From a virus, in IMG/VR virus record IMGVR_UViG_3300025407_000790, positions 1 through 34,419 of that record: 34,419 nucleotides of DNA. One strand, written 5' to 3'. The notes under the pieces are model-generated. The model saw only the letters and a list, made by a program, of their open reading frames with translations, was not told the origin of the DNA and ran no database searches. Made by a program: the position numbers and the translations under genes. Shown here one piece after another: positions 1 to 28,331 of this stretch; positions within the stretch are counted from its first letter, which is position 1; every line of letters starts with the position of its first letter.

Positions 1-102
1 TTTGCTCATACTACATTTAGTTTGACGTTTAAATTAGAAAGAGAACTGCTTGATGAACTTAAACAGCTTCTTACCGCAGATTACAAATTAACTATTCTTT
101 GA
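1..102 (+). CDS. C-terminal end of an unknown protein (partial)
   Basis: An open frame runs from the first base of the window to a TGA at 100-102 and gives the last 33 residues of a protein that starts upstream. The tail is rich in Leu, Lys and Glu and looks like an amphipathic helix (ELLDELKQLL). No family can be recognised from so short a piece. It converges on the minus-strand radical SAM gene and overlaps its 3' end by 15 bases, a tail-to-tail overlap seen three more times in this window. A chance open frame cannot be excluded. Confidence 0.5.
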   Translation, partial: FAHTTFSLTFKLERELLDELKQLLTADYKLTIL

Positions 103-1101
103 ACAAGTATTAACACAAGTAAGACACTTTTTATCAGACCAAAGGTCTGGTAAGTTGTTCCATAAGTTATCTGTTAAGACTTCTGTAATAGGAGCATCGT
201 ATAAATTTGGAACTGTCAGTTTGTTAAGATGTTGTTTAGTTGTGTATATAGATATATTTCTAAGAGCATTGATGACTGTGATTTCAGTTAAAGGTTCTTC
301 TACATAATCAGATCCTAAATAACTGCATGGAAACAAGTTACCTCTACAGTCTACAAATACTTCATTTAAGTTAACACATTTAGGATCAATAACAGATTTA
401 GCTACTACATCATCTCGTACTGCACTATCTAATAATTTTTCTAAAGGTTCTGTTACTTTTGTATTTTTAGAAGGTTGTAAGTTATAGACAAACTTGTTAT
501 GATTATCAAAGACTGGAAAATTAACAACACTATAAAACCTAGTTGTGTGTCTAAACTGTATTTGCGATACTCCTATTCCTAATAAAAATTTTTCAAGTTC
601 TTCTACATCATCCTCGTTGTGTGCAAACACAAGACTGTTTATATTTGCTTTACCGCCAGCCGCAACAAACGCTTTGATATTTTCTATAACTTTATCAAAA
701 TCTGTATTACGTCTATACAGCTCGTGCTTGCCTTTAAATCCGTCTACTGCAAAAGTAACTTCGTTTATATATTGTGCTAACTCTGCCCACCATTCAGGTT
801 TACGTAAACTACCGTTGGTATGCATAGCCGAATAGATATCAGGATTTGACTCTTTGATATATTTGTAAATCTCAAGGCAATCTGTAGCAAATGCCGGATC
901 ACCGTAATTACCTGAACTATAAAAGTTAGTAAGTGTTTGTAAAAACTCCGGTGGAAACCATTGCTTAAAATCTTCAATACCAATTTCAGTATTTTTAATA
1001 AATGGACGAGTAGAGTACCCGTTATGATTGCGGGCACACATAGGACAAGCGGCTTGGCACTTGTCTGTCAGTTCTATATGTAGTCTTTTAACTTTATACA
1101 A
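88..1101 (-). CDS. Radical SAM protein with SPASM-like C-terminal cysteines
   Basis: The N-terminal radical SAM motif CxxxCxxC is visible as C15, C19 and C22 (KCQAACPMC) and would bind the 4Fe-4S cluster that cleaves SAM. The C-terminal third has more cysteines (CVNLNEVFVDCRGNLFPC, then CLTCVNTC near the end), as in SPASM/twitch domains that hold auxiliary clusters. The start chosen is TTG at 1101: it has AGGAG six bases upstream, overlaps the stop of the preceding gene, and gives MYKVKRLHIELTDKC, which lines up with MYKLTDIRDIHLEVTTKC of the paralogue at 11614-12630. An ATG at 1134 is the alternative but would overlap the upstream gene by 41 bases. The two proteins are alike along most of their length (AMHTNGS, WWAELA, HTTRF). 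Substrate unknown. It is the last gene of a minus-strand late block. Confidence 0.85.
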   Translation of the reverse strand: MYKVKRLHIELTDKCQAACPMCARNHNGYSTRPFIKNTEIGIEDFKQWFPPEFLQTLTNFYSSGNYGDPAFATDCLEIYKYIKESNPDIYSAMHTNGSLRKPEWWAELAQYINEVTFAVDGFKGKHELYRRNTDFDKVIENIKAFVAAGGKANINSLVFAHNEDDVEELEKFLLGIGVSQIQFRHTTRFYSVVNFPVFDNHNKFVYNLQPSKNTKVTEPLEKLLDSAVRDDVVAKSVIDPKCVNLNEVFVDCRGNLFPCSYLGSDYVEEPLTEITVINALRNISIYTTKQHLNKLTVPNLYDAPITEVLTDNLWNNLPDLWSDKKCLTCVNTCSKNS

Positions 1102-2326
1102 TCCAGTCTCCTGCTTGATGCCAGCTTGGCACATTCAACTCCGATAAAGGAATTAGTTGCATACCTTGTTTAAAATTAGGAGCAAACGCAAATCCAGTTG
1201 CGGCTCTATCACAAAAGCAAACGTATGCGTTTGGTATATGGTTATTAATCTTTTCAAGGATTTGATTTTCTTTGTATAGTCTATACGTAAGAGGAGCAAA
1301 CGCCATAGTGCCTTCATAGCAAAATATATTTGATAAATTTATCATTGTAGTTTGATTAGGATCTAAAAAACTTATATCAACAGTTTGTCCAAGTAAATCT
1401 AGTAATATAAATTCGTATGTAATATTAGGACGTTGTATTGAATGTTCTTTCCAATAGTCTAATGCACGTTGATTATAATCGTACAAAAATACTTTAACAG
1501 GATCTGTCATATGTAAATGATCAATCCACCATGTACCGCTAGCGGGTGTAAACAACTGAGTTATTGTTCCTTTTAATTCCAGAGATTCTTCTGGAATAAA
1601 TTCATTGCTACTGGTATGCACAAAGGTACTAGAACAATAGTGTTGTCTATAGTATAACCATTCAGATTCTTTTAAAAAATCTTTGTAGCTTTCTGGATAA
1701 TAATGTTTTTTATTTTTTCGAATTTCATTATTAAACACAAGGATAGGAATGTTGTTTTCAAGTGCAACTGAAATTATATGCCATCCATGTGCTTTATGAT
1801 TATATTGCGATTCGGTATTTCCTGCGTTTATCCAAGTTGGTGTGTAATCATCGTGTATGTTTTGAAGGCTACGTACAGGTTTCACTTGTATATGTTTACT
1901 ACCAAGTTCTTGTTGTCCAACAGCTGGACATCCTAATCTTTTGTAGACATCTAAATTAATAATGTAGCATTGATGATGCAGTTCATAATATGCATCTCCT
2001 CTATCCAATACATGCCCGGCAACTATAAATTCTGTTTTAACTAGTTCCTTAACATTATCAAAAAAACTTTCGCCGTTAATAAACTCTGTACCTGGCGAAT
2101 ACACAACGGCATATTTGTATCTAGATTGTACAGCATAATTTATTATTTCATCTTCATAATGGGATACTAGTACATCGAACCCTTTAGTTGTTATATTGCT
2201 TATAGTGTAATCTGCAATATTTTTAATAACTTCTCTAATTGATAATGGATGATAGGTGTGGATGTTATCTACACAACAAAACACTATTTCATTATTATGT
2301 TTAGATTTAAATTTAGTTACGCTCAT
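1094..2326 (-). CDS. Two-part protein of unknown function, possibly glycosyltransferase-like plus methyltransferase-like
   Basis: This 410-residue protein is not recognised with certainty. The first half (about 1-180) has the feel of a Rossmann-type glycosyltransferase: a beta-strand near FCCVDN, then KYAVVYSPGTEF and VKTEFIVAGHVLD. The second half (about 265-400) has strands reminiscent of a degraded class I methyltransferase (VKVFLYDYNQRALDYW with an acidic residue after the second strand, then FILLDLL and TMINLSNIF). Both assignments are inference. It lies between the Asp/Asn-hydroxylase-like gene and the SPASM radical SAM gene, overlapping each by 8-14 bases, so translation of the four genes is probably coupled. 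Confidence 0.6.
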   Translation of the reverse strand: MSVTKFKSKHNNEIVFCCVDNIHTYHPLSIREVIKNIADYTISNITTKGFDVLVSHYEDEIINYAVQSRYKYAVVYSPGTEFINGESFFDNVKELVKTEFIVAGHVLDRGDAYYELHHQCYIINLDVYKRLGCPAVGQQELGSKHIQVKPVRSLQNIHDDYTPTWINAGNTESQYNHKAHGWHIISVALENNIPILVFNNEIRKNKKHYYPESYKDFLKESEWLYYRQHYCSSTFVHTSSNEFIPEESLELKGTITQLFTPASGTWWIDHLHMTDPVKVFLYDYNQRALDYWKEHSIQRPNITYEFILLDLLGQTVDISFLDPNQTTMINLSNIFCYEGTMAFAPLTYRLYKENQILEKINNHIPNAYVCFCDRAATGFAFAPNFKQGMQLIPLSELNVPSWHQAGDWIV

Positions 2327-3023
2327 AACTTCTTACTAGTAATTCGCAAAACTCCTGTCTACGACTTCCTGTAATTCCATGTATAATTAAATGTGTTCTT
2401 GGAGTAGAACTATTGTTGATAACAGAATGATAGTTGCTAATATTAACTAAAATAATTTTTCCTTCTTTCCAAGGAACTGTACCTTTATCTTTTAACGTCA
2501 TATAACATTCTGCTGGATGTATAATAGCAATGTTTATAGGTAACAATATTTCCAACGGATCAAATGAAGAAGGCATACTGGTCAAATCAAAATCACAATG
2601 CGGAGCAATATTCCCTCCTGCACTAACTTCCATGAAGCGTACACGAGCTAATTTTTCAAAAGGAAATTTTTCACAAAACTCTTTTATACTAGGAGTTAAC
2701 GGACTAATACTAGTCCACTGGTATTCTTCCTTATCAACATAGTGATCCCATGTTTTTGTTTTATCAACGTCTATTCCATGTATACAACAACTACGCCATC
2801 CATTATGTGATTCTAAATCTGTATCTCTGTGCGGAACTAGGTACTGAGAACAAGACTGTGCTTCTTTTTGCCACTCGGTAATATCAAATGTTAAATCTAA
2901 TTCTATCCATGCAGAATTTAATAAGATCCATTGTGCTTGTTGATCAATAGTCAAACCATTAGGAATAGGTTGTTTGATCCAAGTTGCATCTTTATTATAT
3001 TTGTAAAAATTTTGTGCGTTCAT
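2313..3023 (-). CDS. Aspartyl/asparaginyl beta-hydroxylase-like Fe(II)/2-oxoglutarate oxygenase
   Basis: The complete facial triad and 2-oxoglutarate arginine of this family are visible: H142 and D144 (IAPHCDFD), H199 (ISNYHSVINNSS) and R209 (PRTHLIIHG). The core strands between them (INIAIIHP, ECYMTL, GKIILVN) fit a double-stranded beta-helix. Family members hydroxylate Asp/Asn side chains or related amino-acid groups using O2 and 2-oxoglutarate; the substrate here is not evident. The ATG overlaps the stop of the upstream twitch radical SAM gene (CTATGA), and its own stop overlaps the next gene by 14 bases. It is the second gene of the late block read from 4252 down to 88. Confidence 0.85.
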   Translation of the reverse strand: MNAQNFYKYNKDATWIKQPIPNGLTIDQQAQWILLNSAWIELDLTFDITEWQKEAQSCSQYLVPHRDTDLESHNGWRSCCIHGIDVDKTKTWDHYVDKEEYQWTSISPLTPSIKEFCEKFPFEKLARVRFMEVSAGGNIAPHCDFDLTSMPSSFDPLEILLPINIAIIHPAECYMTLKDKGTVPWKEGKIILVNISNYHSVINNSSTPRTHLIIHGITGSRRQEFCELLVRSYERN

Positions 3024-4252
3024 AGGAAATCGAATAGTTTTTTATATTCTGTTTTTCTAGTAGTATCATATAGCTCTAACACTCGTGTACGTTCAGCAAC
3101 CACCGCATCGAAATCTTCTGCTTGGGCAAATAAAAACTTATCTATATTTTGCAAGTAGTTGACTACATTACTATTTTCTTTAAATATTTTGTAATCAAGT
3201 TGTAACATTGTTTTTACACGGCTGACAATTTGTTCTTTTAACTCTACTGGCAAATATGCTATAGAAAAATAAACTGGGTCTGCAACAAAATTAAAACTGA
3301 TAGGCAATTTATCTTTCAAATGAGCATAGCGTTCAAATTCTGCCATAATTGTTTCTATATCAAAAATATTAAAAATACTAAATGTTACTGAAATTTCAGT
3401 TTTAATAATATTGTTCTTTAATAAAGTTTCAAAGTTGTGTTTAAACTCGTAGAACTTTGCAGGGAATCTGATATAGTGAAATTTATCCGAATCCACGTGA
3501 TCAAAACTGCAAGTAAGATATACTGATTTAAATTGTTCTAATCTATCTATGAGTCCTTGCTCTACGCTAGATAAGTTTGTAATGATTTCAAGTTCAACTG
3601 ATTTAGAATATCCTCGTTCGACTAGCTTATCTATAATCTCAAATGTAACAGGATTAATCAAAGGCTCTCCGCCCACTAATCTAATTTTATCTAAGTTTTT
3701 GAGAATAGGTTCTAAATTTTTAAAGATTATATCGCAATTATCTTTATCAAATCTGTACTGTTGTTTTTCGTTTTTAAATTCTACTTCAATCCATTCTAGC
3801 ATACTGGGTAGTTGTATATCGTTGGCCTGCCATAGTTTTATTTCTGTTTCGTGCATTGAACTAGATAACTGACAACACATGATGCATTTTAAATTACACA
3901 GATTACCTAACTTAAAATCAAACAACTTGGGAGGCAATGAATAGCTTCCATCATCTGACATATGAGCAACCATGCCGTCTATGTTTACATTCCTATTTTC
4001 ATTCTTACGCATCGAATATCCATTGTCTTTTTCCATGCGCCAGCAAGAATCACAATTAGGATTTTTAACACCGTTGACTAAGTCTAATCTTAATTGTTTA
4101 TAGTAGTCGCTATTCCAAACAACATCTGCCGAGTCCGTTTGAATATTTGGGCCAAAACCAAAACTATCACAGCACACTCGGTAATCTCCACTGTTTGTAT
4201 TGCTCATCATAGTAAACGGCAGTACACAAATTGTATCTTTAGAATATATCAT
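3020..4252 (-). CDS. Twitch-domain radical SAM protein
   Basis: Cysteines in the first 75 residues (C9, C27/C28, then CDSCW at about 67-70) form an N-terminal twitch-like half, followed by the radical SAM motif C119, C123 and C126 (CNLKCIMC). Further on, VGGEPLINP is the usual glycine-rich SAM-binding segment. This order (cysteine-rich N-part, then radical SAM core) matches N-terminal twitch radical SAM proteins; the protein at 28322-29698 has the same plan. The start chosen is ATG 4252; a TTG three bases earlier is also in frame. A perfect TATAAATA late element ends only four bases before the ATG, so the mRNA is probably leaderless. First gene of a four-gene minus-strand block. Substrate unknown. 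Confidence 0.85.
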   Translation of the reverse strand: MIYSKDTICVLPFTMMSNTNSGDYRVCCDSFGFGPNIQTDSADVVWNSDYYKQLRLDLVNGVKNPNCDSCWRMEKDNGYSMRKNENRNVNIDGMVAHMSDDGSYSLPPKLFDFKLGNLCNLKCIMCCQLSSSMHETEIKLWQANDIQLPSMLEWIEVEFKNEKQQYRFDKDNCDIIFKNLEPILKNLDKIRLVGGEPLINPVTFEIIDKLVERGYSKSVELEIITNLSSVEQGLIDRLEQFKSVYLTCSFDHVDSDKFHYIRFPAKFYEFKHNFETLLKNNIIKTEISVTFSIFNIFDIETIMAEFERYAHLKDKLPISFNFVADPVYFSIAYLPVELKEQIVSRVKTMLQLDYKIFKENSNVVNYLQNIDKFLFAQAEDFDAVVAERTRVLELYDTTRKTEYKKLFDFL

Positions 4253-4256
4253 CAAC

Positions 4257-4264
4257 TATTTATA
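4257..4264 (-). promoter_or_regulatory. T4-type late promoter, perfect TATAAATA
   Basis: The minus strand reads TATAAATA exactly, the consensus that the T4-type late sigma factor recognises at -10. The downstream ATG (4252) begins five bases past its last A, so the predicted start of transcription coincides with the start codon. It is back to back with a second late element at 4282-4289 serving the opposite strand. Confidence 0.8.
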
Positions 4265-4281
4265 GTGGGTGTTAACTGCCC

Positions 4282-4289
4282 GATAAATA
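4282..4289 (+). promoter_or_regulatory. T4-type late promoter, GATAAATA
   Basis: GATAAATA differs from the T4 late consensus in one base and ends six bases before ATG 4296. With the usual T4 spacing the transcript would start at or within a base or two of the ATG. It is paired divergently with 4257-4264, only 17 bases away. Confidence 0.7.
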
Positions 4290-4295
4290 TTGCCT

Positions 4296-4940
4296 ATGTG
4301 GACACATTACTATAAACTAGACGAATTTGGAAAACCCTGCCATGCTCAAATGAGTTACGAACCTTTGATTAATAAAGAACGTAACGTATTCTGCATGAAT
4401 TTTGATCCTAATAATTCTTATCAAGACTACATAAACAAAGTCGGGTTTATTCCAGAAATAGTTCATGAGCTATTTGATCGTGAAGTTAAGTATCTTACCA
4501 AGTTTCAAAAATACAGTTGGGCTCCTGAAGTATTAGATATAGAAGGTAACAAAATATACATTCGCTGGTATGACAACACATGTAATGATATAATTAATAC
4601 TGGCAATACATTACCGCCTAATTGGAAAGATCAGCTAACACATATCATACATGATCAGTTAGATGAACATGTTTATAAAATAACACAATACCCACATTGC
4701 TTTTATGTAGACAACACCAGCACATTACACACATTTGATTTGCATGCCTGTTTTGATTTTGACGACTATATGATGCCCTGGAGCAAACTTAAAGGCGTAA
4801 TACACGGAAGTAGCGAAGGAAGAATTGCAGAAGTACAGTCTGAGGATATGGTTAATATGCGAGATATGTTTTTAAATAGTTTACGTACACATATCAAATG
4901 GCCTGATAATTACCTAAATGAAATTTATAAATTATTATGA
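4296..4940 (+). CDS. Phage protein, possible small kinase-like fold (paralogue of 7878-8573)
   Basis: Not firmly recognised. The protein (214 residues from ATG 4296; an in-frame TTG lies at 4290) is clearly related to the product of 7878-8573: both have FCM followed by an Asn-rich stretch, a conserved strand (APEVLDIEGNKIYIRW here, VPAIKEVNVPERKIYLEI there), LPxWxDQ, and a YK..xHPxxYxxD-type segment. The latter (VYKITQYPHCFYVDN followed by FDLHACFDFDD) resembles the catalytic loop and metal-binding Asp of small RIO/aminoglycoside-kinase-like folds, but this is a guess. It starts right after a late promoter and shares ATGA with the oxygenase-like gene downstream. Confidence 0.75.
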   Translation: MWTHYYKLDEFGKPCHAQMSYEPLINKERNVFCMNFDPNNSYQDYINKVGFIPEIVHELFDREVKYLTKFQKYSWAPEVLDIEGNKIYIRWYDNTCNDIINTGNTLPPNWKDQLTHIIHDQLDEHVYKITQYPHCFYVDNTSTLHTFDLHACFDFDDYMMPWSKLKGVIHGSSEGRIAEVQSEDMVNMRDMFLNSLRTHIKWPDNYLNEIYKLL

Positions 4941-5452
4941 TTAAATGGAAACCAATCGTCGATACGCTATTACTGCTTGACGGTGAGCATGTGTCCTTAA
5001 AACATACCAACAACATACCTGTTGGCAATCCGCATTTTGTCGAAATTATGAAACAATTAGAATCTGCCAAATATGATTTTAGTTCTGTAGATTGGATCGA
5101 TTATTATCCTAGTGTACATTTCGATAACACCTGTGTCGATGAATTTAGTAAATTAGTAGACCATAAAATATGTAGAGCTTGGATTAGTCGTGTCGACCCA
5201 GGAAAAAATGCACCTTGGCATTGGGATGTAGACGACCAAGAAACAGAGTTTTTAAAATTAGGTAAGTTAAAGAGATGGACTTGTTTTATAACTGAACCCA
5301 AAGTTGGGCATAGTTTAATTATTGGCAATAAAGGATTTTACAATGAACCTGCTGGCACTATATATGAATGGCCTAATTACAGAGAATGGCATTGTGCCGC
5401 TAACTGTGGTATGGAGCCACAATTCTTATTTCATTTTTTAGGATTTAAATAA
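4937..5452 (+). CDS. Cupin/Fe(II) oxygenase-like protein
   Basis: A 171-residue protein with a likely Fe(II) site: H95 and D97 (APWHWDVDD) as the HxD pair and H152 (NYREWHCAAN) as the distal His. Between them lie short beta-strands (RWTCFITEP, GHSLIIGN, AGTIYEWP), as in a jelly-roll fold. An arginine for 2-oxoglutarate is not obvious, so it may be an Asp/Asn-hydroxylase relative with a changed co-substrate site. It follows the possible kinase-like gene with an ATGA overlap. Its 3' end overlaps the opposing TauD-like gene by 22 bases with no terminator between them. Confidence 0.75.
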   Translation: MIKWKPIVDTLLLLDGEHVSLKHTNNIPVGNPHFVEIMKQLESAKYDFSSVDWIDYYPSVHFDNTCVDEFSKLVDHKICRAWISRVDPGKNAPWHWDVDDQETEFLKLGKLKRWTCFITEPKVGHSLIIGNKGFYNEPAGTIYEWPNYREWHCAANCGMEPQFLFHFLGFK

Positions 5453-6294
5453 TCCTGTGGTATATAGTTAAAAGAAGATCTATGTAACAGACGTTTGTCT
5501 ATACTTTGAAATTCTAAACGTCTGTGAATTCCAAACACCATATCTGCAAGAACAATATCGCCATCTTGCCAATCATGCGAGTAAATATATTTGTCTTGTG
5601 TAATATGTTTTGCAAGTTTGTCAATGATAGGTTGGCTTTGTTCTTCAGTCATGCCTTTAAAATAAAACATTTGCAAATACGGAAAGAATATTCCTTTCCT
5701 ACCTTGACGGTTTTCTCTTATAATACTAGGAGTGTATTCTTCGTTTATAAACTTACCAGGCATGTGTTCTAACGCAGGAGATAATCTTTCAGCGTCGTGA
5801 CCAAACACTCCTTGTAAATCTTTAATTTCATCAAATAATTCTGGAGTCAAATCATCGTATGCTAGGAAGTTATTTGTCCATTGTGTTATAGAACCCGTAG
5901 TACCTTCTATCCCTCTCAAGTACACAATTAACTTACTTGCAGGACTTGCCGGGCCATTACAATGCCATTTTAATTCCGCCGGGTGCCCAAAGATTCCAGT
6001 CTTGCCATCTTTAACTATACGTCCGGTCACAGGAATTAATTTGCATTCACTATCAGGAATCACACACTTACCAATGGTTTCTGATTCGGGTGGTTTATCG
6101 TATGTTTCCACTTCGTGAAACAAGTTAATAAACTTTAGTTCATCTTTCATTGTAATGTTAGTTCTAGGGATCACTACCAGGGTGTTAGAATCAAGTAGTC
6201 GACAAATTTCATTTGCATCTTCTTGAGTTGGATTTATAAGATCAATTTCGTCAACTATTACAGTCCACCCATTTTCGTGTATATGATATTTCAT
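5431..6294 (-). CDS. TauD/TfdA-like oxygenase with an HxN instead of HxD metal motif
   Basis: Overall length (287 residues), an N-terminal lid segment, the WHCNG motif and a distal IHRRL...RLLHRSSFNY segment identify the TauD/TfdA family of Fe(II)/2-oxoglutarate oxygenases. The family normally has HxD or HxE; here the pair is H111 and N113, with H257 as distal His and R268 or R272 as the 2-oxoglutarate anchor. The relative at 8635-9711 has the same His-x-Asn change. Asn is a weak iron ligand, so the enzyme may have altered chemistry, another function, or no activity. Last gene of a four-gene minus-strand late block; its ATG overlaps the preceding stop (TAATG). Confidence 0.8.
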   Translation of the reverse strand: MKYHIHENGWTVIVDEIDLINPTQEDANEICRLLDSNTLVVIPRTNITMKDELKFINLFHEVETYDKPPESETIGKCVIPDSECKLIPVTGRIVKDGKTGIFGHPAELKWHCNGPASPASKLIVYLRGIEGTTGSITQWTNNFLAYDDLTPELFDEIKDLQGVFGHDAERLSPALEHMPGKFINEEYTPSIIRENRQGRKGIFFPYLQMFYFKGMTEEQSQPIIDKLAKHITQDKYIYSHDWQDGDIVLADMVFGIHRRLEFQSIDKRLLHRSSFNYIPQDYLNPKK

Positions 6295-7097
6295 TAATAA
6301 TTTTCCAAGTTGTCAATGCCTAACTTTTTACGAAACTCTTCCGTAAACTTACCGTCAATTCGTAAACCATAGCTTTGTCGCATAATACGATCACCGCCGT
6401 GCCAATCTTGATCATTCCACCATGCGGCACGACAATTGATATAATGTTTGTTTTTAGTTTCTGGATCCCATAGATAAAAAGGTCTTTCTAAATTAGGACG
6501 AATATGAATAAACTCGTTGCGATGTGGACTATAACCTTTTGGTCCTTGTTCTCCGCTCAAATCTCTATGTTCCCAACTGATACCGTCGGCATCGCATACA
6601 AAAAATATTACACGGCCGATATGTTCAAAGATACCGTTGGTAATAGTTTGCTCTACCCATTTAACTACATTAGGGAAATACTTTGCTTCTTCTGTTAGTT
6701 TACGCGGTGCAGTCCTGTCATCCCAGGAACCTTCTTCCCACAAAAAATAGTAAGTGTAAGGATCGTATGCACCCATGGCAATTTTAAGATAACGAGTAAA
6801 GATGTTTCTTTGCTTGTATTTCTTAAAGTCTTTATAATATTCCATTCCTTTTAGTTTGATAGGATTATCATCTGGTAACGATAAAAATTCTTCCATAGCT
6901 TTGTAAATTGGTTTCCAATGCATGATATAACTCATGTCTGCAATATCAAAGCCTGGTTTCATCCAAGTGCCTTCTTTAGCAAACTCCATTGCGTCGGCAA
7001 AGCCTTCGTGTATTTCTTGTTGTAGTGCGTCAAACCCTTGCATGTCTAAATGTGGCGACATATCAAAATAAGGAATATTATTAATGCCTTTAATCAT
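6294..7097 (-). CDS. Fe(II)/2-oxoglutarate oxygenase-like protein, copy A of a tandem pair
   Basis: The 267-residue protein shows a full metal triad: H177 and D179 (WEHRDL), H233 (QDWHGGD) and R246 (YGLRIDGKF) for 2-oxoglutarate. Strands around FIHIRPNLERPFYLWD fit a double-stranded beta-helix. It is a tandem paralogue of the gene just upstream (7094-7891): both begin M-(K/R)GIN..P..DMS, contain G.YDP, and share RPFY(L/V).D and (G/S)LR(I/V)DG. The two share an ATGA junction. Substrate unknown; the island context suggests tailoring of a late product. Confidence 0.8.
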   Translation of the reverse strand: MIKGINNIPYFDMSPHLDMQGFDALQQEIHEGFADAMEFAKEGTWMKPGFDIADMSYIMHWKPIYKAMEEFLSLPDDNPIKLKGMEYYKDFKKYKQRNIFTRYLKIAMGAYDPYTYYFLWEEGSWDDRTAPRKLTEEAKYFPNVVKWVEQTITNGIFEHIGRVIFFVCDADGISWEHRDLSGEQGPKGYSPHRNEFIHIRPNLERPFYLWDPETKNKHYINCRAAWWNDQDWHGGDRIMRQSYGLRIDGKFTEEFRKKLGIDNLENY

Positions 7098-7891
7098 AAA
7101 TTTAATTCCTTTTTCATAGCATCTGTAAAATATCCGTCAACACGTAGTGACCAAGCGGGTGCAATATGTCTAACTGCCGAATGCCATTCTTTTGCATTAA
7201 ACCAGCATGCCCATGAATTAGCAAAATACTTGTCTTTGTTATCAGCATCGAATACATAGAAAGGTCTACTAGTGTCAGAACGTAAATGTATAAAATGAGG
7301 TAATTGATCAATATCATCATGCACCTTATCTAACGGCAACCGCAAGTCACTGTCTGGTGCTAGGTCATAATGTTCTACAGTTCTTCCATCATGCTCAACG
7401 TAAAATATACATACCCGGAATATACTATCAAACATTGTTCCAATTAAAGAATTTGCCCATGCCATCACTGAAGGAAACTTTTCTGCAAGCTCGGGTAGTT
7501 TAGCATCGGGCATAGTTGTGCCGCCAAAGTTTTCATTTGTAGTTAAGTAAAAAACACGAAGTGGATCATACACTCCGTATTTTGATTTAAAAAATCTAAT
7601 TAGTTTATTTCTAGAAGTTACGTTATCTAGATTATTGTGCCACTGCTTTGCTTTAGAGTCATCTGTAATATCTGGATCTTTCAAGAAATCCTTTAATCCG
7701 TCCGGAATAGTTTTCCAGTCTTGCGGATTAGTTGAGTTAGGATGATTTTCAATATCAATCCATATACCTTCAAATGCATCTAACTTGGTTTCTGCAAGCC
7801 CAGCTATAATTTCAGGTTCAAGTTTTTGAAACGCTTCTCTATCTAAGAAACGACTCATGTCTACTATTGGCTGACCGTTAATCCCTCGCAT
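7094..7891 (-). CDS. Fe(II)/2-oxoglutarate oxygenase-like protein, copy B of a tandem pair
   Basis: The start is placed at ATG 7891 rather than an in-frame codon at 7948, because MRGINGQPIVDMSRFLD then lines up with MIKGINNIPYFDMSPHLD of copy A and the overlap with the upstream gene falls to 14 bases. The resulting 265 residues contain H174 and D176 (VEHYDL), H237 (KEWHSA) and R250 (WSLRVDGYF) as predicted Fe(II) and 2-oxoglutarate ligands. Order and spacing match copy A, although overall identity is modest, so the duplication is not recent. Confidence 0.8.
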   Translation of the reverse strand: MRGINGQPIVDMSRFLDREAFQKLEPEIIAGLAETKLDAFEGIWIDIENHPNSTNPQDWKTIPDGLKDFLKDPDITDDSKAKQWHNNLDNVTSRNKLIRFFKSKYGVYDPLRVFYLTTNENFGGTTMPDAKLPELAEKFPSVMAWANSLIGTMFDSIFRVCIFYVEHDGRTVEHYDLAPDSDLRLPLDKVHDDIDQLPHFIHLRSDTSRPFYVFDADNKDKYFANSWACWFNAKEWHSAVRHIAPAWSLRVDGYFTDAMKKELNL

Positions 7892-8573
7892 ATATTTGTT
7901 TTGCCTTTTTAATAAAATCTTCTGGATACATATTACTAAAACAATCAAATGTAAGTTGTTGTATTACGTTTAACGGATATTTTGTATTCCAATCTAAATT
8001 AATAGAATCTGTATATTTTTTTAACTGTTCTTGTCTTTGTAAACTAATGTGACTTTGTACACTTGCAATGGATAAATCGGGTTCATTGCTACTGTAAGTA
8101 AAAAAATAGTTGATGCTTTTTAGTTTGCCATCTACAATAAAATAACTGCTTGGGTGCATACTGTACTTGTACCAGCCTCTGTCTTTGTGTGCTTGGATAA
8201 TGGCTAGCATTTGATCCTGCCAGTCTGGTAGTATTTCATTAAACGAACAATTACGGTCTAAACTTTGTTGCCAAAAATCAACACCACCAATTTCTAAATA
8301 AATTTTACGTTCTGGAACATTTACTTCTTTAATTGCTGGAACCATGTCTGGATTATGCCAAGCCATGTTGCTAATGAAGTGCAATTCTCGATTCCATTTT
8401 TCATCCATTAGTTCTTGGTCAATTACTTGATTCTTACCCTGGTGATATTCGGAATCATTATGATACCACATACAAAATGTTTTACTATCACTACTAATTA
8501 AACTAGTATAGATTAAGTTATTTCTACAAGGTTCTTCACCTGGTACGCGATTGTAATAGTATTCAAACTGCAT
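7878..8573 (-). CDS. Phage protein, possible small kinase-like fold (paralogue of 4296-4940)
   Basis: A 231-residue relative of the 4296-4940 product: shared features are CRNN.Y.SLI, TFCMW, a strand ending RKIYLEI, LPDWQDQ and a YKYSMHPSSYFIVDG segment where a kinase-like catalytic loop might be. Function not recognised; the kinase idea is inference. It leads a late minus-strand block whose next three genes are all oxygenase-like. Unlike its paralogue it has a conventional leader: the late element AATAAATA lies 18 bases upstream and GGGAG sits before the ATG. Confidence 0.75.
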   Translation of the reverse strand: MQFEYYYNRVPGEEPCRNNLIYTSLISSDSKTFCMWYHNDSEYHQGKNQVIDQELMDEKWNRELHFISNMAWHNPDMVPAIKEVNVPERKIYLEIGGVDFWQQSLDRNCSFNEILPDWQDQMLAIIQAHKDRGWYKYSMHPSSYFIVDGKLKSINYFFTYSSNEPDLSIASVQSHISLQRQEQLKKYTDSINLDWNTKYPLNVIQQLTFDCFSNMYPEDFIKKAKQIYARD

Positions 8574-8591
8574 AAAATCTCCCTATAGCTC

Positions 8592-8599
8592 TATTTATT
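8592..8599 (-). promoter_or_regulatory. T4-type late promoter, AATAAATA
   Basis: One mismatch to TATAAATA on the minus strand. After it come about 18 bases with a GGGAG ribosome-binding site before ATG 8573. It stands back to back with the late element at 8620-8627 in a 61-base intergenic region, the same arrangement as at 4257-4289. Confidence 0.7.
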
Positions 8600-8619
8600 T
8601 TCTGCCCTTAACTCTACAA

Positions 8620-8627
8620 CATAAATA
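8620..8627 (+). promoter_or_regulatory. T4-type late promoter, CATAAATA
   Basis: One mismatch to TATAAATA. Only seven bases separate it from ATG 8635 and there is no Shine-Dalgarno sequence in that space, so a leaderless or nearly leaderless mRNA is expected. Confidence 0.7.
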
Positions 8628-8634
8628 TTGTACT

Positions 8635-9711
8635 ATGAAAATTACAAAAATACCCGGCTTAGGAAGATTCGGAATCTTTATCGATGATGTAGACTTTACT
8701 ACAATGTCAGATGACCAGTGGTTAGAAATCGGACAACTGCATTTACAAAACTTAGTTACAATCATACGAGACTGTAACATGCCTTGGGAAACTCAACCAG
8801 ACTGGTGTGAAAAGTTTGGTCCCAGACGCAGTGGAGTACGCTACCATATGGAAAAGAAGTATGGTCAACAATGGAATTGGTTATTCAAAGAAGCACAAGC
8901 AAATAATCCTATTATTAGTGAATTGGATCGAGAACGTATACAAGCTATTGCCAAAGTACAGTATCAAACTCCAGGCGGAAAAAGTTTCATGAAAGTGAGT
9001 GGAGCCAAGGATGAACACGGTAATGCACTTGGGATGTTTGCAGAAGGCGAATTACTATGGCATAGTAACGAATCGGGTACGCTGACATTTACTCCGGGCG
9101 TTGCATTGTTGGGTGTGCAGAACATGATAGGATCTGCTACAGGATTTATCACAACTACTGATTATTATGAAAATGTAAGCAATGCATTTCGTAGCGAATT
9201 AGATGAAATGATACTGTTACATAGATTTATCCCGGGTGCTATTAATCCAGGTCTACGTGCAGATCAAGATGAAATCATGCATGCCAATATGTGTCCAGAA
9301 GACGATACCGAAATACCAATGACCATTTTAAGTCCAAGTGGTATCAAAGGACTGCATTATAGTATTAATACTGCTTATAGTATTAAGGGCATGAGCAAAG
9401 AATCCAGCGATGAAATATTTGCTATGATTAACAAAGAATTATTTGTAGACAAATACATCTATGATCACTGGTATCAAAGTGATCACGACTTGTGTTTGTT
9501 TGACAACAGTATTACATTACACAGAAGATTAGGCGATATCAAAGAACGTGTGTGCCATCGTGTCCCACATGACTACACTAAATTACATAGCAACTTTTGG
9601 CAGCCTTATAGCCAACCAGATGTTGCTGATCAATTCGAAAAAGAAATTCTTTACTATGTTGATTTATGCAAGGTTAGAGGATACAGAATGCCTGACGGAA
9701 GTTTGTCTTGA
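8635..9711 (+). CDS. TauD/TfdA-like oxygenase with an HxN metal motif
   Basis: A 358-residue TauD/TfdA relative: N-terminal lid, LLWHSNESG with H143 and N145, and the distal LHRRL...RVCHRVPHDY segment with H296 and R305 or R309. As in the relative at 5431-6294, the Asp/Glu of HxD/E is Asn, while HRRL is intact. The C-terminus extends about 40 residues past the core. The protein is longer than its relative, with an insertion between residues 180 and 245. It is the first gene of a plus-strand late block and shares TTGA with the next gene. The predicted transcript has almost no 5' leader. Confidence 0.8.
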   Translation: MKITKIPGLGRFGIFIDDVDFTTMSDDQWLEIGQLHLQNLVTIIRDCNMPWETQPDWCEKFGPRRSGVRYHMEKKYGQQWNWLFKEAQANNPIISELDRERIQAIAKVQYQTPGGKSFMKVSGAKDEHGNALGMFAEGELLWHSNESGTLTFTPGVALLGVQNMIGSATGFITTTDYYENVSNAFRSELDEMILLHRFIPGAINPGLRADQDEIMHANMCPEDDTEIPMTILSPSGIKGLHYSINTAYSIKGMSKESSDEIFAMINKELFVDKYIYDHWYQSDHDLCLFDNSITLHRRLGDIKERVCHRVPHDYTKLHSNFWQPYSQPDVADQFEKEILYYVDLCKVRGYRMPDGSLS

Positions 9712-10319
9712 ATCCGTATGCCGTTGAAAATACATACCACGTAATTTATCACGAAACATGTGATGAGTTCGAACGTGTACGCAGTATCTGTTTAGAAGAG
9801 AATAATTGGTTACAGAAAAATTATACTCAAGAAAAATTAGTTATAGAAGATCATAGTGGTTATGTTGTAGTATATCAGAAAGAAACTAACAAACCTATTA
9901 TCATGGCAGGTGCATATAATGGCATGTTTCCTTCTAACGTAGCTCGATTAGCCAACAGATTATATTTGTTTCCAGAATTTCGTTGCGGTAGACACAACAT
10001 GATAGAATCTTACAAACTTCATCATGAACGTATAGTTAAGCCTTTAATGGCTATTAACGATTACAATCTGTATGTTATCACTATGCAAAATCGTACTCGT
10101 GGAAACAAGGGGTGGTGGAGTCGTTGGAAAAAAATGATGCAAGAATCCAGCAATAATATGTGGACTGAAGCAGATGGCTATTTGCAAACATGTCCATGGC
10201 TTGTTCAAAAGTGTTGTCAAAATTTTGTTTATACAGAATTAAAAAAAGGTACATTTAAAGAATGGAACCCAAAAATTATAACCGAGGCGGAATGGCAAGT
10301 ATTGCCTGAAGGTACATGA
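9708..10319 (+). CDS. GNAT-like phage protein of unknown function
   Basis: A 203-residue protein that starts with TTG 9708 inside the stop of the upstream gene (TTGA). VVVYQKETNKPIIMAGAYNG followed by ARLANRLYLFPEFR resembles strands of small acyltransferases (GNAT-like), with a basic patch (RTRGNKGWWSRWKK) after it. No acetyl-CoA motif is certain. It sits between a TauD-like oxygenase and a fatty-acid desaturase, which would suit an acyl-transfer step, but that is inference from context only. Confidence 0.65.
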   Translation: MNPYAVENTYHVIYHETCDEFERVRSICLEENNWLQKNYTQEKLVIEDHSGYVVVYQKETNKPIIMAGAYNGMFPSNVARLANRLYLFPEFRCGRHNMIESYKLHHERIVKPLMAINDYNLYVITMQNRTRGNKGWWSRWKKMMQESSNNMWTEADGYLQTCPWLVQKCCQNFVYTELKKGTFKEWNPKIITEAEWQVLPEGT

Positions 10320-11050
10320 CATTAAACAAAAAGTTACGAACCTTACAATTTTTAAATCTTTTCTTATCTATCGTAGGATTGTGTTATTATGGGTTTGATT
10401 ACTTGTTGTTGAGTTATCTAGTTTTTGTTTTGTTATGCCCTATTGGAATTAGTGCAGGGTTACATAGATACTTTACACACAAGTCTTATAAAACATCTAA
10501 GTTCTGGGAAAGAACTATGTTGCTGTTAAGTGTATATGCTACTGTAGGTAGCAGTATAGCTTGGGTCGGTGTTCACAGAGCACATCATACATTTACCGAC
10601 AAACCCTACGACCCGCATAGTCCAGCTGATGGAGTATTCAAAGCATGGACTGGTATAGGGCATACTGAAACTAAGATCCCAGTTAGTTTTGTAAAAGATC
10701 TATTAAGAGATCCGTTACATAGATTTATACACGATAATTATTTTAAAATTTTATTGATTCCAGTAATTGCATTATTTCTGTATAGTCCAATGCTCGGAGT
10801 TTTTTTATATGCTATACCTGCAACTCTGGCGCTACAAACAACTAGCATAGTTAATGTACTAGGACACACACAAGGATATCGCAGTTACAATACTGACGAT
10901 TGCAGTAGCAATAGTTGGATTGCTAACATTCTTAGTTTAGGAGAAGGATGGCATAATAACCATCATCATTATCCCAGCAATTTTAGTTTAACAGAACGTT
11001 GGTGGGAATGGGATTTAATTGGCGAATTTATAGAGGCAATTCGCCTATAA
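10316..11050 (+). CDS. Membrane fatty-acid (acyl-CoA delta-9-type) desaturase
   Basis: All three histidine boxes of membrane desaturases are present: HRYFTH (50-55), HRAHH (87-91) and HNNHHH (213-218, in GEGWHNNHHHYP). They bind the di-iron centre that introduces a cis double bond into an acyl chain. Hydrophobic stretches at about 10-45, 66-82 and 145-180 make the membrane core. At 244 residues it is a short but complete form without a cytochrome b5 part. It shares ATGA with the upstream GNAT-like gene. Its 3' end overlaps the opposing methyltransferase by 23 bases. Expected role: changing the unsaturation of host membrane lipids or a lipid product late in infection. Confidence 0.92.
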   Translation: MTLNKKLRTLQFLNLFLSIVGLCYYGFDYLLLSYLVFVLLCPIGISAGLHRYFTHKSYKTSKFWERTMLLLSVYATVGSSIAWVGVHRAHHTFTDKPYDPHSPADGVFKAWTGIGHTETKIPVSFVKDLLRDPLHRFIHDNYFKILLIPVIALFLYSPMLGVFLYAIPATLALQTTSIVNVLGHTQGYRSYNTDDCSSNSWIANILSLGEGWHNNHHHYPSNFSLTERWWEWDLIGEFIEAIRL

Positions 11051-11624
11051 TCATATAGCGGGTATACATCTGTGTTTCTAACTCACCGGACCATATGACA
11101 TCAAGTTTACTTTGTTCTTCAAAATGTTGTAAACTAGTAGAAGTTCTAATGTGTTCTGGTAACTCATAATTGTTGCCTTGCAACACAATCAAACTATCTT
11201 TTCTAAGACCCGACAACCATAGCTCGTAATCTTCTTGAGTGATATGTTCACAGCTAGTATTAATAACAACATCAGCCTCGCTAGGCACGTTTATCATATT
11301 AGCATGGATGAATTCAAACCTGCCCTGTATATGTTCAATCTTGTTCATCATCTCGGATATAGATTTACAGTTTATATCTAAATCTATATTGTTAATTTTT
11401 TCAACAGTCATTCCACTTTGAAATATCATACTGGCTAGAGTACCTACCCACCCTGCGTATATGTCAATATTAACAGGCTGATCAATTTCTAATTTCAAAT
11501 GTTCTATCAGCCATTCTTTACTTTTAATTTGTCCGCGCCAAAACGCTTCTAAAGTTTGACTTGGATTGTCGCTATCTCTTATAGCACACATCCAATAATG
11601 TAAATGTTCTGTATCAATTAGCAT
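11028..11624 (-). CDS. SAM-dependent methyltransferase-like protein
   Basis: The 198-residue protein has a class I methyltransferase pattern: a glycine-containing first strand (VNIDIYAGWVGTLAS), an acidic end of strand two (NNIDLDINCKS), FEFIHANMINV, and ADVVINTSCEHI as the strand-four region. Target unknown. It is the last gene of the minus-strand block 13577-11028 behind two radical SAM genes, with a start overlapping the SPASM gene's stop, so it may act on the same substrate. Its stop overlaps the opposing desaturase. Confidence 0.75.
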   Translation of the reverse strand: MLIDTEHLHYWMCAIRDSDNPSQTLEAFWRGQIKSKEWLIEHLKLEIDQPVNIDIYAGWVGTLASMIFQSGMTVEKINNIDLDINCKSISEMMNKIEHIQGRFEFIHANMINVPSEADVVINTSCEHITQEDYELWLSGLRKDSLIVLQGNNYELPEHIRTSTSLQHFEEQSKLDVIWSGELETQMYTRYMIIGELPL

Positions 11625-12630
11625 TAAACTGTGTTCCTAACTTGTCGAACTTGCCGCATTGTTTGGCACATTCATAAACTGGGTCGTTAGCCCAGGTGTT
11701 TTCAATACGATTAAAATAACCCGAATTGAAAATGTCCTCTAAAGATTGTTCATGTAGATTAGGAAACTCTCCAATCTTGTCCATATAATCGATACGAGTA
11801 TATTGTTTATGTAATTTTTCTTTAAAGTCCATCCAGCAACACGGACCGACATTACCAGACGCCGCAACATAAATTTGTTTGTATTTGACTGCCTTGCAAG
11901 TAATAACACAAGAACTTTTGTCTACCACTTGATCCATAGGCATATCTCTTGCATACTTTAAAACTTCTGGAAGTATTTCTTCAGTTTTGGTACTTGGCAA
12001 TAAATGATACAATGTCTTGCCTGAATCATCTAATACTGGAAATTTAATATCAGTAAATCGAGTTGTGTGTTTTACTTGGAATAAATTAAATCCTAACTGG
12101 GCAGACAGACGGCGGCATGCTTCTACTTGATGCTCATTGTGTTTGAACACCAGCATGTGCCAATCTGCATGGCCACCTGCTTGTATGAATGCAGTTGCAT
12201 TTTTTATAATTCTGTTCCAATCTGTGTCTATTCTATAAAGAGAATGAGTGTCTTCTAATCCGTCAATACCAAATACTACTCTAATATCTAATTTAGCTAA
12301 CTCTGCCCACCATTGAGTACTTCTAGCACTGCCGTTTGTATGCATACTCAAACGTATATTAGGATTAGTTGTTCTGAGGTACTGAAAGATTGCCAAACAA
12401 TCTTCTGCAATGATAGGATCACCCAAGTTGCCGCACATGAATAAACTATCTAGTTGACAGATAAAATCTTTACTGAACCATTTTTTAAATGTATCTAAAT
12501 CTATTTCCACTAATGTCATGAGCGGATTCAATGTGCCGCCGTTGATACGCCTTGGGCACATAGGGCAACGTGCTTGACATTTAGTAGTTACTTCTAAGTG
12601 TATATCTCGTATGTCTGTTAGTTTATACAT
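11614..12630 (-). CDS. Radical SAM protein with SPASM-like C-terminus (paralogue of 88-1101)
   Basis: C18, C22 and C25 (KCQARCPMC) form the radical SAM cluster site. The C-terminal region carries extra cysteines (SSCVITCKAVKYKQIYVAASGN would be the SPASM entry, then GPCCW and CAKQCG near the end). It is co-linear with the 88-1101 product over nearly the whole length. SPASM proteins often modify peptides or proteins; no precursor peptide is seen nearby. It overlaps its upstream partner radical SAM gene by 13 bases. Confidence 0.88.
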   Translation of the reverse strand: MYKLTDIRDIHLEVTTKCQARCPMCPRRINGGTLNPLMTLVEIDLDTFKKWFSKDFICQLDSLFMCGNLGDPIIAEDCLAIFQYLRTTNPNIRLSMHTNGSARSTQWWAELAKLDIRVVFGIDGLEDTHSLYRIDTDWNRIIKNATAFIQAGGHADWHMLVFKHNEHQVEACRRLSAQLGFNLFQVKHTTRFTDIKFPVLDDSGKTLYHLLPSTKTEEILPEVLKYARDMPMDQVVDKSSCVITCKAVKYKQIYVAASGNVGPCCWMDFKEKLHKQYTRIDYMDKIGEFPNLHEQSLEDIFNSGYFNRIENTWANDPVYECAKQCGKFDKLGTQFNAN

Positions 12631-13577
12631 TTTGGTATTTTGCTGTCTGCACTACTTACGCAACGAGGCGTTGAACATATACGAGGTGCGGAAAACAAAG
12701 TAAATTTTTCTATCGTACCTAATGGCTCATCCCGACAACTATAAGCTCTTTTAACTTCAGTACCTTTTATTATAACACTTTGATAGCCTGCATTGCAAGT
12801 CCAATTGGTAAAACTATTGAACCCTAATGCGTTGAATCGTTCTGCTTGATCTATAAAATAATTCTGATTACCGTCGGTTAACCTGATTTGATATCCTTCC
12901 TGCTGTTCAAAGTCATTTTGCATTATAGTAAGCATATCAGGAGTATAGCCTTCTACAATAGCAGTAGCAGTATCATTGCTTTGTGGTTTGAGAGTTACGT
13001 TGATTCCACGAGCACGAAGGCGTTCACAGCGAGCCAATGTTTCATAAAACACACTGGGAACCATTACTTGATTAACTGTTACATGTACCTGTTCATACAT
13101 TAACTGTAAACATTTGTCTCCAAACTCTTGCTCTCTAGCATGTTCTGCGTGAAAACTGGCAGTGATACTTCTTCGCTGTAGGCAGTCTGTAACATCGCTC
13201 CAATGCTTCCACCATTTTGATCCTGGACTTAAATTAGTTGTCATATGGATACTTTGGTACGGGCTTTCGGTTTCGTCCAAATGTTTGATCAAATTGAGCA
13301 AATCTCGATAAGCAGTCGGCTCACCTCCGCTGAAGCTCCAGTGGAATTCTTCAAATCCATTTATCCTAGCCTGGCGTTTGATTTCATCTATAACGGATTT
13401 ATACACTTCTAAGGTTTGGTGATCCGGTTGATCGCTTCTAGCGTAGGGCCAACAGTAGGAACATTTATAGTTACAAAATCTACCCAGGATCCAACTAATG
13501 TTAAATAATGGACGATCCAACATAGATTGTTGTCCAAAACGTTGTATTTTTGCGAAAGGTATAGTTGAGAATTGCAT
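12618..13577 (-). CDS. Radical SAM protein
   Basis: The cluster motif is CNYKCSYC (C35, C39, C42 from ATG 13577), followed by FSGGEPTAY, the SAM-binding GGEP segment. Late cysteines (NWTCNAGY, AYSCRDE, ICSTPRC and KCIN at the end) suggest one or two auxiliary clusters. Two in-frame ATGs exist. The second (13577) is preferred: TGTAAATA, a likely late -10 element, abuts the first ATG (13583) and ends six bases before the second, the same distance as at 4296. First gene of a three-gene block with a SPASM radical SAM protein and a methyltransferase. Confidence 0.85.
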   Translation of the reverse strand: MQFSTIPFAKIQRFGQQSMLDRPLFNISWILGRFCNYKCSYCWPYARSDQPDHQTLEVYKSVIDEIKRQARINGFEEFHWSFSGGEPTAYRDLLNLIKHLDETESPYQSIHMTTNLSPGSKWWKHWSDVTDCLQRRSITASFHAEHAREQEFGDKCLQLMYEQVHVTVNQVMVPSVFYETLARCERLRARGINVTLKPQSNDTATAIVEGYTPDMLTIMQNDFEQQEGYQIRLTDGNQNYFIDQAERFNALGFNSFTNWTCNAGYQSVIIKGTEVKRAYSCRDEPLGTIEKFTLFSAPRICSTPRCVSSADSKIPKCIN

Positions 13578-13605
13578 TGACATTATTTACACATGGTGCT
13601 ATAAT
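13577..13605 (+). promoter_or_regulatory. Perfect sigma70 promoter (TTGACA-17-TATAAT)
   Basis: TTGACA at 13577-13582 and TATAAT at 13600-13605 are both exact consensus with a 17-base spacer. Transcription would start about 13610-13612, at the first base of the tRNA-like element. It is the start of the rightward early-type region. Confidence 0.88.
13584..13591 (-). promoter_or_regulatory. Probable T4-type late promoter, TGTAAATA
   Basis: The minus strand reads TGTAAATA, one mismatch to the late consensus, six bases before ATG 13577. It lies inside the 17-base spacer of the plus-strand sigma70 promoter 13577-13605, so the two cannot easily be occupied at once. Confidence 0.6.
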
Positions 13606-23807: not shown

Positions 23808-23946
23808 GTTAAGATATTATTCAACAACAGGCGATATGCTCGTTAAATATTTTGCAACAATTAACGAAGCATTGCATTATTCGGTATATAGTATACCGTT
23901 TCAAAGTTTTTATGGAATTGATAAAATAGAGGAAAACAATGCCTAA
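23800..23946 (+). CDS. Small phage protein of unknown function
   Basis: 48 residues ([18 protein letters not shown]...), rich in Tyr and Phe. It starts inside the end of the MazG-like gene and ends 8 bases inside clpP, so it probably links their translation. Alternating pattern suggests a beta-strand pair followed by a helix. Not recognised. Confidence 0.65.
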
Positions 23947-27511: not shown

Positions 27512-28331
27512 TTATTGGTCATGTACAAAATTTGCAGACTGGGTTCGTGGCACTAAAAAACTAAGTGCCGCTACTAGTGAAGACTGGGACGAATGGCGTA
27601 CCACTGCTAAAATGCGACATAACTTTCGCTACTGGGTCGCAGAAGAATTGCTTGACAATATTCAAGGCTTTTTTCTTTACATACCGGACAGACTAAATGA
27701 CATCCGTTACTACATCAACAATCGTTGGGTTAGTAAGAGTCATGCTCTTACTGCCCACCCTCGTGATATCCGCCCTGGCCGTTGGAGTGACGTTGGTAAT
27801 CGTTTTCTTCCATGTTTGTTTAACGAACTTGTGGACTTTGTTGAAATCGAACAAGCGTGGCATTATGTAATGTGGAACAGCGAAGAACAGAAGAAATATA
27901 ATGTTCCCTGGTATCGCAGTGGTTGGTTACGCTGGCGTACTTGGCGTTGCCCAGAAGCAGGACTTGCTTACTTAGATTGGGCTAGTACTCTTACTAACGA
28001 AGAGTTTCTTGACGATGACCAGAAGCACGAAGCCGTTCCAACTTTCCAAGCCAATAATGCTAAGGAAATTAAAGAGCTGTATCTTTGGTGGACTACTGTG
28101 TATCGTAATCGACCAGAACCAATGGAGGCAAGCGGCTGGAGTGCTTATTGTGAAGCCGCACGTCTAGCCAATAGTGGCCGTCTAAGTTTTGGCAAAGAAA
28201 AAAGTCCTGAGCTTGCCGAGATGAGTCGTGTTGCTATGGACAAAATGCACAAGATGGAAGAGGCTTACGAGGCCGAAGATGAAGCTATGATGATTCGTCT
28301 TATCAAAGTGCGTCAAGGCCTATGGACTTAA
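27504..28331 (+). CDS. Tryptophan-rich phage protein of unknown function
   Basis: 275 residues with about twenty tryptophans in motifs such as WDEWRTTAKMRHNFRYW, AWHYVMWN, GWLRWRTWRCPE and LYLWWTTVY, likely packed helices. The C-terminus has a Met/Glu-rich helix (MDKMHKMEEAYEAEDEAMM). No catalytic pattern or family is recognised. It is coupled at both ends between an oxygenase and a radical SAM gene, so a shared pathway is possible. Confidence 0.7.
   Translation: MRNYWSCTKFADWVRGTKKLSAATSEDWDEWRTTAKMRHNFRYWVAEELLDNIQGFFLYIPDRLNDIRYYINNRWVSKSHALTAHPRDIRPGRWSDVGNRFLPCLFNELVDFVEIEQAWHYVMWNSEEQKKYNVPWYRSGWLRWRTWRCPEAGLAYLDWASTLTNEEFLDDDQKHEAVPTFQANNAKEIKELYLWWTTVYRNRPEPMEASGWSAYCEAARLANSGRLSFGKEKSPELAEMSRVAMDKMHKMEEAYEAEDEAMMIRLIKVRQGLWT

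Follow-up and report, generated by a model that had tools for sequence, protein, structure and literature searches.

T4-type phages with about a dozen radical S-adenosylmethionine (SAM) genes have been known since 2010. The Campylobacter phages CP220 and CPt10 possess 11 and 12 radical SAM genes, respectively, and a swappable module of ~10 kb in which five radical SAM genes are accompanied by an amidinotransferase gene (PMC2853527). The T4-like phage TARA_ERS488813_N000010 combines 12 radical SAM genes with an A-type Fe-S carrier in one genome (PMC5332604), and in pelagimyophages the tail fibres are flanked by a hypervariable host recognition cluster that contains glycosyltransferases as well as radical SAM cassettes (PMC7029224). 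Here, we describe an island of radical SAM, oxygenase-like and other genes at positions 88-13583 of a stretch of viral DNA of 34,419 nucleotides (IMG/VR record IMGVR_UViG_3300025407_000790, positions 1 to 34,419), which in its entirety is called the window below. An earlier sequence-only reading of the window proposed that the island encodes one late tailoring pathway, acting on a virion component or a small product. We find that its core recurs in related phage contigs and that part of this core forms a small cassette on Bdellovibrionota chromosomes. Our favoured interpretation, held with slightly less than even confidence, is that the island is one end of a single late biosynthetic cluster of 20-40 kb, belonging to a T4-supergroup phage, whose enzymes assemble a glycoconjugate, or decorate one, inside the infected cell.

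The window coincides with positions 8274-42692 of a longer contig, G001 (IMGVR_UViG_3300025467_000526; 120,433 bp), at 99.98% identity. There the island extends leftward by ~8 kb, to G001:215, and gains four radical SAM genes (families 1.1, 1.3, 0.8 and 0.10), a gene resembling pyridoxal phosphate (PLP) aminotransferases (family 17, with an SLSKG motif) and a second Asp_Arg_Hydrox gene (family 11.1); these families are sequence clusters made for the present analysis, and gene starts were set by rule. Twelve contigs were searched, including G001, the overlapping G002 and G003, apparently a longer version of G004, and each held 8 to 15 radical SAM genes. Gene order was compared in ten distinct contigs (G001 and G004-G012); all the phage contigs come from metagenomes and are likely to be incomplete. 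Across the ten, about 16 core families are largely conserved in orientation and in order (1.2, 10.1, 4.1, 0.10, 1.1 / 1.3, 0.8, 25/17 / 11.1, 3.2, 2.2 / 5.1, 3.1, 24, 7.1, 8), G001 having the same families in a rearranged arrangement. The core includes the radical SAM families 1.2, 4.1, 0.10, 1.1, 1.3 and 0.8, the methyltransferase-like family 10.1, the oxygenase families 2.2, 5.1, 8 and 11.1, the pseudokinase families 3.1/3.2 and the two-part protein 7.1. Desaturase, TauD-like, GNAT-like, PP-loop ATPase and PLP-enzyme genes are variable extras, to which the relatives add carbamoyltransferase, amidinotransferase, halogenase and cobalamin-type radical SAM genes. Genes of the tryptophan halogenase family lie inside the relatives' islands at L143:121-1617 and L143:1565-3016 (G006), L151:6532-8100 and L153:2320-3543; one of the relatives' genes, when tested, matched the halogenase profile PF04820 at 5e-97.

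Loci fetched through a single family show the same company. Family 10.1 was present in 37 of the 37 loci fetched via 1.2, and 4.1 in 34; among the 33 fetched via 7.1, 29 held 11.1 and 23 held 5.1. The neighbourhood comparison suggested with the sequence-only reading therefore came out in its favour: because the core co-occurs, largely in order, in nine other distinct contigs and in the single-family loci, the contrary case of single, scattered genes is excluded. This conserved order and company also argue for the glycoconjugate interpretation. If the genes were separate auxiliary metabolic genes gathered at a hot spot and belonged to no single pathway, the very variable periphery, with its changing set of desaturase, TauD, halogenase and GNAT genes, would be accounted for; nevertheless, with ~16 families together and mostly ordered in ten contigs, and three of them together in bacteria too, we regard this as distinctly unlikely.

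The bacterial counterpart emerged from a genome scan with family 1.2, which has at least 591 matches among viral contigs and no close match found in named phages. The scan yielded 17 loci, 14 of them titled Bdellovibrionota; another of the 17, L186 (G018), from a metagenome-assembled genome, was assigned to the same phylum by a later search. The matches mostly have 45-50% identity over ~314 residues. In the bacterial cassette, F21, a GT-A-like protein, accompanies 1.2, 0.10 and 4.1. F21 carries a DxD-like motif, which is conserved in the group assessed as candidate glycosyltransferases (F21, relatives and G001:113-115 kb); a PDB search with the F21 profile gave no meaningful match. The trio 1.2, 0.10 and 4.1 is the same as in the phage island, but the bacterial islands are chromosomal and, in their larger forms, have many more twitch radical SAM copies. 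Some of these larger islands lie near GT2, PMT-like (PMT_2) or UDP-sugar dehydrogenase genes and one adjoins ribosomal protein genes; they may also hold 10.1, 17, 22, 25 or a desaturase, and families 5.1 and 3.x were not seen in the Bdellovibrionota islands. Big radical SAM islands, with a dozen or more such genes in ~30 kb, occur at L194-L195 (G017:C1:745-775 kb) and L196-L197 (G019:C275). The core gene is patchy, with a match in 13 of 192 Bdellovibrionota genomes sampled. In a tree of family 1.2 all ten proteins from phages group in a single clade (support 97/100), which fits one transfer event; the bacterial cassette therefore counts as independent evidence, but the shared company of the families among the phages does not. 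Bdellovibrionota are not claimed as hosts, the link being the shared core only.

The bacterial cassette argues for a glycoconjugate because it includes the GT-A-like F21 and because larger islands lie near the sugar-related genes named above. A further argument comes from family 4.1, found in every contig compared: its nearest PDB relative (2.5e-7; core domain only) is cytosylglucuronate decarboxylase, a sugar-nucleoside enzyme of the radical SAM type that belongs to the pathway of a nucleoside natural product. The same relationship would suit a cluster whose product is a small, diffusible molecule resembling an aminoglycoside or an amino acid rather than a polymer; so would the relatives' combination of radical SAM, PLP enzyme, GNAT, methyltransferase, amidinotransferase, carbamoyltransferase and halogenase families. 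However, no recognisable scaffold-forming enzyme was seen, and a secreted product is of little obvious use to a lytic phage, so that this explanation appears unlikely. The bacterial chromosomes also bear on modification of the phage's own DNA. Radical SAM and 2-oxoglutarate (2OG) enzymes participate in known DNA hypermodifications, and Que genes are present: a QueD-like gene at window 32548-33075 (read from sequence) and a QueE-like gene at G001:103378-104229 (phrog_2076 3e-53), which suggest a 7-deazaguanine pathway that may serve to modify DNA. Since the core exists as a three- or four-gene cassette on bacterial chromosomes and the island does not include the Que genes, DNA hypermodification is a very unlikely purpose for it.

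Within the window, all 16 open reading frames (ORFs) of the island are genuine open frames, in five blocks: 88-4255 (-), 4290-5452 (+), 5431-8573 (-), 8635-11050 (+) and 11028-13583 (-). The gene count and block structure of the sequence-only reading are thus confirmed; its right-hand limit, 13577, marks the second Met of an ORF whose coordinates reach to 13583. The coding share is 99.3%, with only two gaps, of 34 and 61 bp, each separating divergent blocks. Maturation of a ribosomally synthesized and post-translationally modified peptide (RiPP) would be in keeping with SPASM and twitch radical SAM enzymes, which are typical of RiPPs, and with weak NCBIfam matches to peptide maturases. All matches to RiPP radical SAM maturase models were nevertheless far under the cut-off, and no precursor gene was found in so densely coding an island, which makes this the most improbable of the explanations considered here.

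The motif TAAATA lies within 60 nt upstream of each of the five blocks. In the ten contigs it precedes 52 of 98 block-first genes, against 10.3 expected from shuffled upstream sequence, and 51 of 543 internal genes, against 49 expected. This enrichment before block-first but not internal genes makes T4-type late control of the island likely. The late promoters of the sequence-only reading accordingly hold as TAAATA motifs but not as the exact T4 octamer, TATAAATA, which occurs twice in the window against five expected; the octamer was rejected as proof and the TAAATA test used instead. T4/Mosig protein comparison found relatives of gp17, gp18, gp20, gp21, gp23 or gp25 in G003, G010 and G011; a gp23 Pfam search across the contigs matched in G011 only, and no T4-type genes beyond replication genes were found in G001. 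On sequence grounds, the phage clade can be placed in the T4 supergroup. G001 also encodes an A-type Fe-S carrier (PF01521; G001:45711-46013), present in eight of the 11 related contigs and fitting for so heavy a load of Fe-S enzymes.

The outer edge of the island points to another possible target. A gene with a receptor-binding Mtd_N domain (2e-8) closes the island in G001 and forms its outer edge in eight of ten contigs; it was not detected in G007 and G008, which have a different flank. A diversity-generating retroelement beside this gene was rejected, as a search of 11 contigs found no reverse transcriptase. The enzymes could thus hydroxylate, epimerise or crosslink virion proteins, most probably the Mtd_N protein or other fibres. 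The late-type promoters and the adjacent Mtd_N gene are in accord with this, and the Asp_Arg_Hydrox and SPASM families include modifiers of proteins or peptides. On the other hand, Bdellovibrionota have the core trio on their chromosomes, where no phage tail genes were seen in its surroundings; the position next to fibre genes may only mark a hypervariable hot spot; and G007 and G008 have the island with no Mtd_N gene detected. We consider modification of virion proteins somewhat unlikely; the bacterial core makes an exclusively virion substrate less likely, while the neighbouring Mtd_N gene keeps a virion substrate alive. Of the proposed late tailoring pathway, one co-inherited unit with late-type promoters is supported; its target may be a virion component or a small product.

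In the glycoconjugate interpretation, glycosyltransferases would supply a sugar chain or sugar-lipid, on which radical SAM enzymes would oxidise, epimerise or deoxygenate unactivated C-H positions; oxygenases would hydroxylate the product, the aminotransferase, acetyltransferase and methyltransferase would cap it, and the pseudokinases would serve as scaffolds or carriers. The end use would most likely lie in host recognition or in the exclusion of competitors, through an altered surface glycan on the infected cell or on the phage fibre. Our inferences here cover the sequence of steps, the identity of the substrate and a role in changing the surface or decorating fibres. Further arguments are the single phage clade of 1.2, the TAAATA enrichment, the A-type carrier, the Mtd_N gene at the edge and the lack of room for a precursor peptide, together with the published pelagimyophage islands that pair glycosyltransferases and radical SAM genes by the tail fibres (PMC7029224). 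Several points weigh in the opposite direction. The island in the window has no clear glycosyltransferase or nucleotide-sugar enzyme, and F21 is no more than GT-A-like: hhalign aligned its DxD segment with that of GT2 at a non-significant E of 0.07, and no Pfam match was found. The substrate is not deducible from radical SAM sequence similarity, phage co-occurrence stems in part from shared descent, and in L178 the minimal cassette of the bacteria has no obvious glycan operon next to it. A broader proposal, which we put forward as possible but more guardedly, is that the radical SAM trio 1.2/4.1/0.10 forms the centre of a hitherto undescribed system for modifying a surface glycan or other polymer, common to Bdellovibrionota and a large uncultured clade of the T4 supergroup and expanded in the phages by 2OG oxygenases, pseudokinases and, in the relatives, halogenases.

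The features of the window are collected in Table 1, and genes are designated by their first coordinate.

Table 1. Genes and divergent promoter-like regions of the island, and a fifth radical SAM gene outside it (window coordinates).
Feature	Position	Strand	Evidence
Radical SAM/SPASM-type enzyme, family 4.1, second copy	88..1134	-	PF04055 7.5e-14; CX3CX2C
Two-part protein, family 7.1	1094..2326	-	No Pfam match; AF2 pLDDT 81
Asp/Asn beta-hydroxylase-type 2OG oxygenase, family 8.2	2313..3023	-	PF05118 (Asp_Arg_Hydrox) 5.7e-13
Radical SAM with N-terminal twitch domain, family 0.7	3020..4255	-	NF033640 1.2e-84, 284.8 bits
Divergent late-promoter-like region	4256..4289		TATAAATA on -, GATAAATA on +; + motif abuts start codon
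Kinase-fold paralogue of 7878, family 3.2, degenerate catalytic motifs	4290..4940	+	Alignment with 7878
Small cupin-like Fe(II) oxygenase, family 2.2	4937..5452	+	HWD...H; HxD...H conserved in family
TauD-fold protein, family 9.2	5431..6294	-	PF02668 2.7e-23; WHCN, i.e. HxN for HxD
Fe(II)/2OG oxygenase-like, family 5.1	6294..7097	-	HRD...H...R
Paralogue of 6294, family 5.1	7094..7891 (ORF extendable to 7948)	-	HYD...H kept
Kinase-fold protein, family 3.1	7878..8573	-	AF2 pLDDT 90; Foldseek kinases E 3e-6, TM 0.4-0.5
Divergent late-promoter-like region	8574..8634		AATAAATA on -, CATAAATA on +
TauD-fold protein, family 9.1	8635..9711	+	PF02668 1.3e-14; phrog_24590 4e-102; HxN
GNAT-like protein, family 40	9708..10319	+	Assigned by eye only
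Fatty-acid-desaturase-type enzyme	10316..11050	+	PF00487 3e-15; three His boxes
Methyltransferase-like, family 10.1, core	11028..11624	-	Family matches Mosig gene annotated 'putative methyltransferase', 1e-17
Radical SAM/SPASM enzyme, family 4.1, core, common to phages and Bdellovibrionota	11614..12630	-	PF04055 and SPASM
Radical SAM with C-terminal Cys cluster, family 1.2, the most conserved gene of the core	12618..13583	-	PF04055 2.2e-11; alignment
Fifth radical SAM, NF033640 twitch type, outside island	28322..29698	+	NF033640 1e-99, 334.4 bits

Profile searches of the 16 proteins gave Pfam support for the four radical SAM proteins, the Asp_Arg_Hydrox protein, the two TauD-fold proteins and the desaturase, the others being assigned through family alignments, predicted structures or by eye. 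The four radical SAM proteins of the sequence-only reading (88, 3020, 11614 and 12618) all lie above the PF04055 cut-off and keep CX3CX2C; gene 3020 starts at TTG 4255 or ATG 4252, and the curated cut-off of NF033640 is 170. Upstream of 28322 lie a conserved gene, 27504, and a 2OG-Fe(II) oxygenase gene, 26912. Six oxygenase-like proteins had been listed, of which 2313 is supported by Pfam, with HxD and a distal His present in the alignment, and 4937, 6294 and 7094, for which no Pfam match was found, by HxD...H in their families. In family 5.1, H177, D179, H233 and R246 are invariant across 13 aligned sequences, and 6294 and 7094 would qualify as Fe(II)/2OG oxygenases by HxD...H with a downstream Arg; a PDB search with the family profile gave no meaningful match. 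The remaining two, 5431 and 8635, are not proven oxygenases, because despite their PF02668 matches HxN replaces the iron-binding HxD of the TauD/TfdA triad, HxD/E...H. Relatives of 8635 with 44-47% identity occur in the cyanophages P-HM1, P-HM2 and MED4-213, and the P-HM2 homologue also has HxN (WHSN), so the label 'taurine catabolism dioxygenase' is doubtful for this phage family.

The three-His-box desaturase, with boxes HRYFTH, HRAHH and HNNHH, was upheld and has relatives in Mosig and an Acinetobacter phage. The methyltransferase assignment of 11028 rests on its family's match to Mosig and has no Pfam match, and 9708 is a real gene whose GNAT-like identity remains a guess, with neither a Pfam nor a PHROG match; its family adjoins the desaturase in G004 also. 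An addition to the sequence-only reading is the paralogy and kinase-like fold of 4290 and 7878, by alignment for the former and by predicted structure for the latter. Both have lost the HRD and DFG aspartates, which makes 7878 a likely pseudokinase. Conserved degenerate proteins of this kind, together with the HxN TauD-like proteins, suggest unusual chemistry or scaffolding. In the predicted structure of 1094, an N-terminal alpha/beta part weakly resembles GT-A folds and a C-terminal Rossmann part weakly resembles methyltransferases; Foldseek gave a best E of 1.5e-3, with many methyltransferases and LH3 at low probability, and a firm fold assignment was rejected on such weak matches. Family 7.1 was also rejected as a relative of F21 (hhalign, not significant). 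Elsewhere in the window, sequence reading alone gave SPFH/prohibitin-like (21221-22153), MazG-like (23436-23807), ClpP-like (23939-24529) and UV-endonuclease-like (33145-34170) genes. No tRNA genes were found in the G001 contig, where positions 46034-58537 form one open frame of 4,167 residues, probably a very large structural protein. A nucleotide search of named phages returned zero matches, as did protein searches with 7878, 6294, 1094 and 2313.

Compared with the described systems, the density of such genes, which the sequence-only reading had singled out, is not new, because CP220/CPt10, the TARA phage and the Pelagibacter phage Mosig EXVC030M (MT647606) are precedents: 11-12 radical SAM genes per T4-type phage are published (PMC2853527, PMC5332604), and the gene mixture of Mosig is comparable. 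CP220 has three genes matching family 4.1 (best 2e-28) and a match to F53 at 8e-54, but in its stretch 0.10, 5.1, 3.x and 7.1 found no counterpart, nor did the oxygenase families, and the match to 1.2 is marginal. By its published description, TARA_ERS488813_N000010 is similar in its many radical SAM genes and its A-type carrier. In Mosig, too, a variable island adjoins the tail-fibre genes; it contains Asp_Arg_Hydrox, GNAT, methyltransferase, TauD, aminotransferase, fatty-acid desaturase, radical SAM and carbamoyltransferase genes, and matches eight families by hidden Markov model (4.1, 1.1, 9.2, 17, 27, 8.2, 10.1 and 82); the stretch examined is without 1.2, 0.10, 5.1, 3.x and 7.1, and three genes are annotated MoaA-like, compared with 8-15 radical SAM genes in the present contigs. 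As to position, the host recognition cluster of pelagi- and cyanomyophages lies between VrlC and gp14, with tail-fibre genes. The present islands mostly have the Mtd_N gene at the outer edge, and no VrlC or gp14 relatives were found in the related contigs by the T4/Mosig protein comparison. In the open-access literature we found no paper on the conserved core, the pseudokinase and 5.1 families or the Bdellovibrionota cassette. These are the new elements, along with how widely the core is spread; the conserved core can now be separated from the variable extras, and its bacterial version of three or four genes turns the question of purpose into a testable one.

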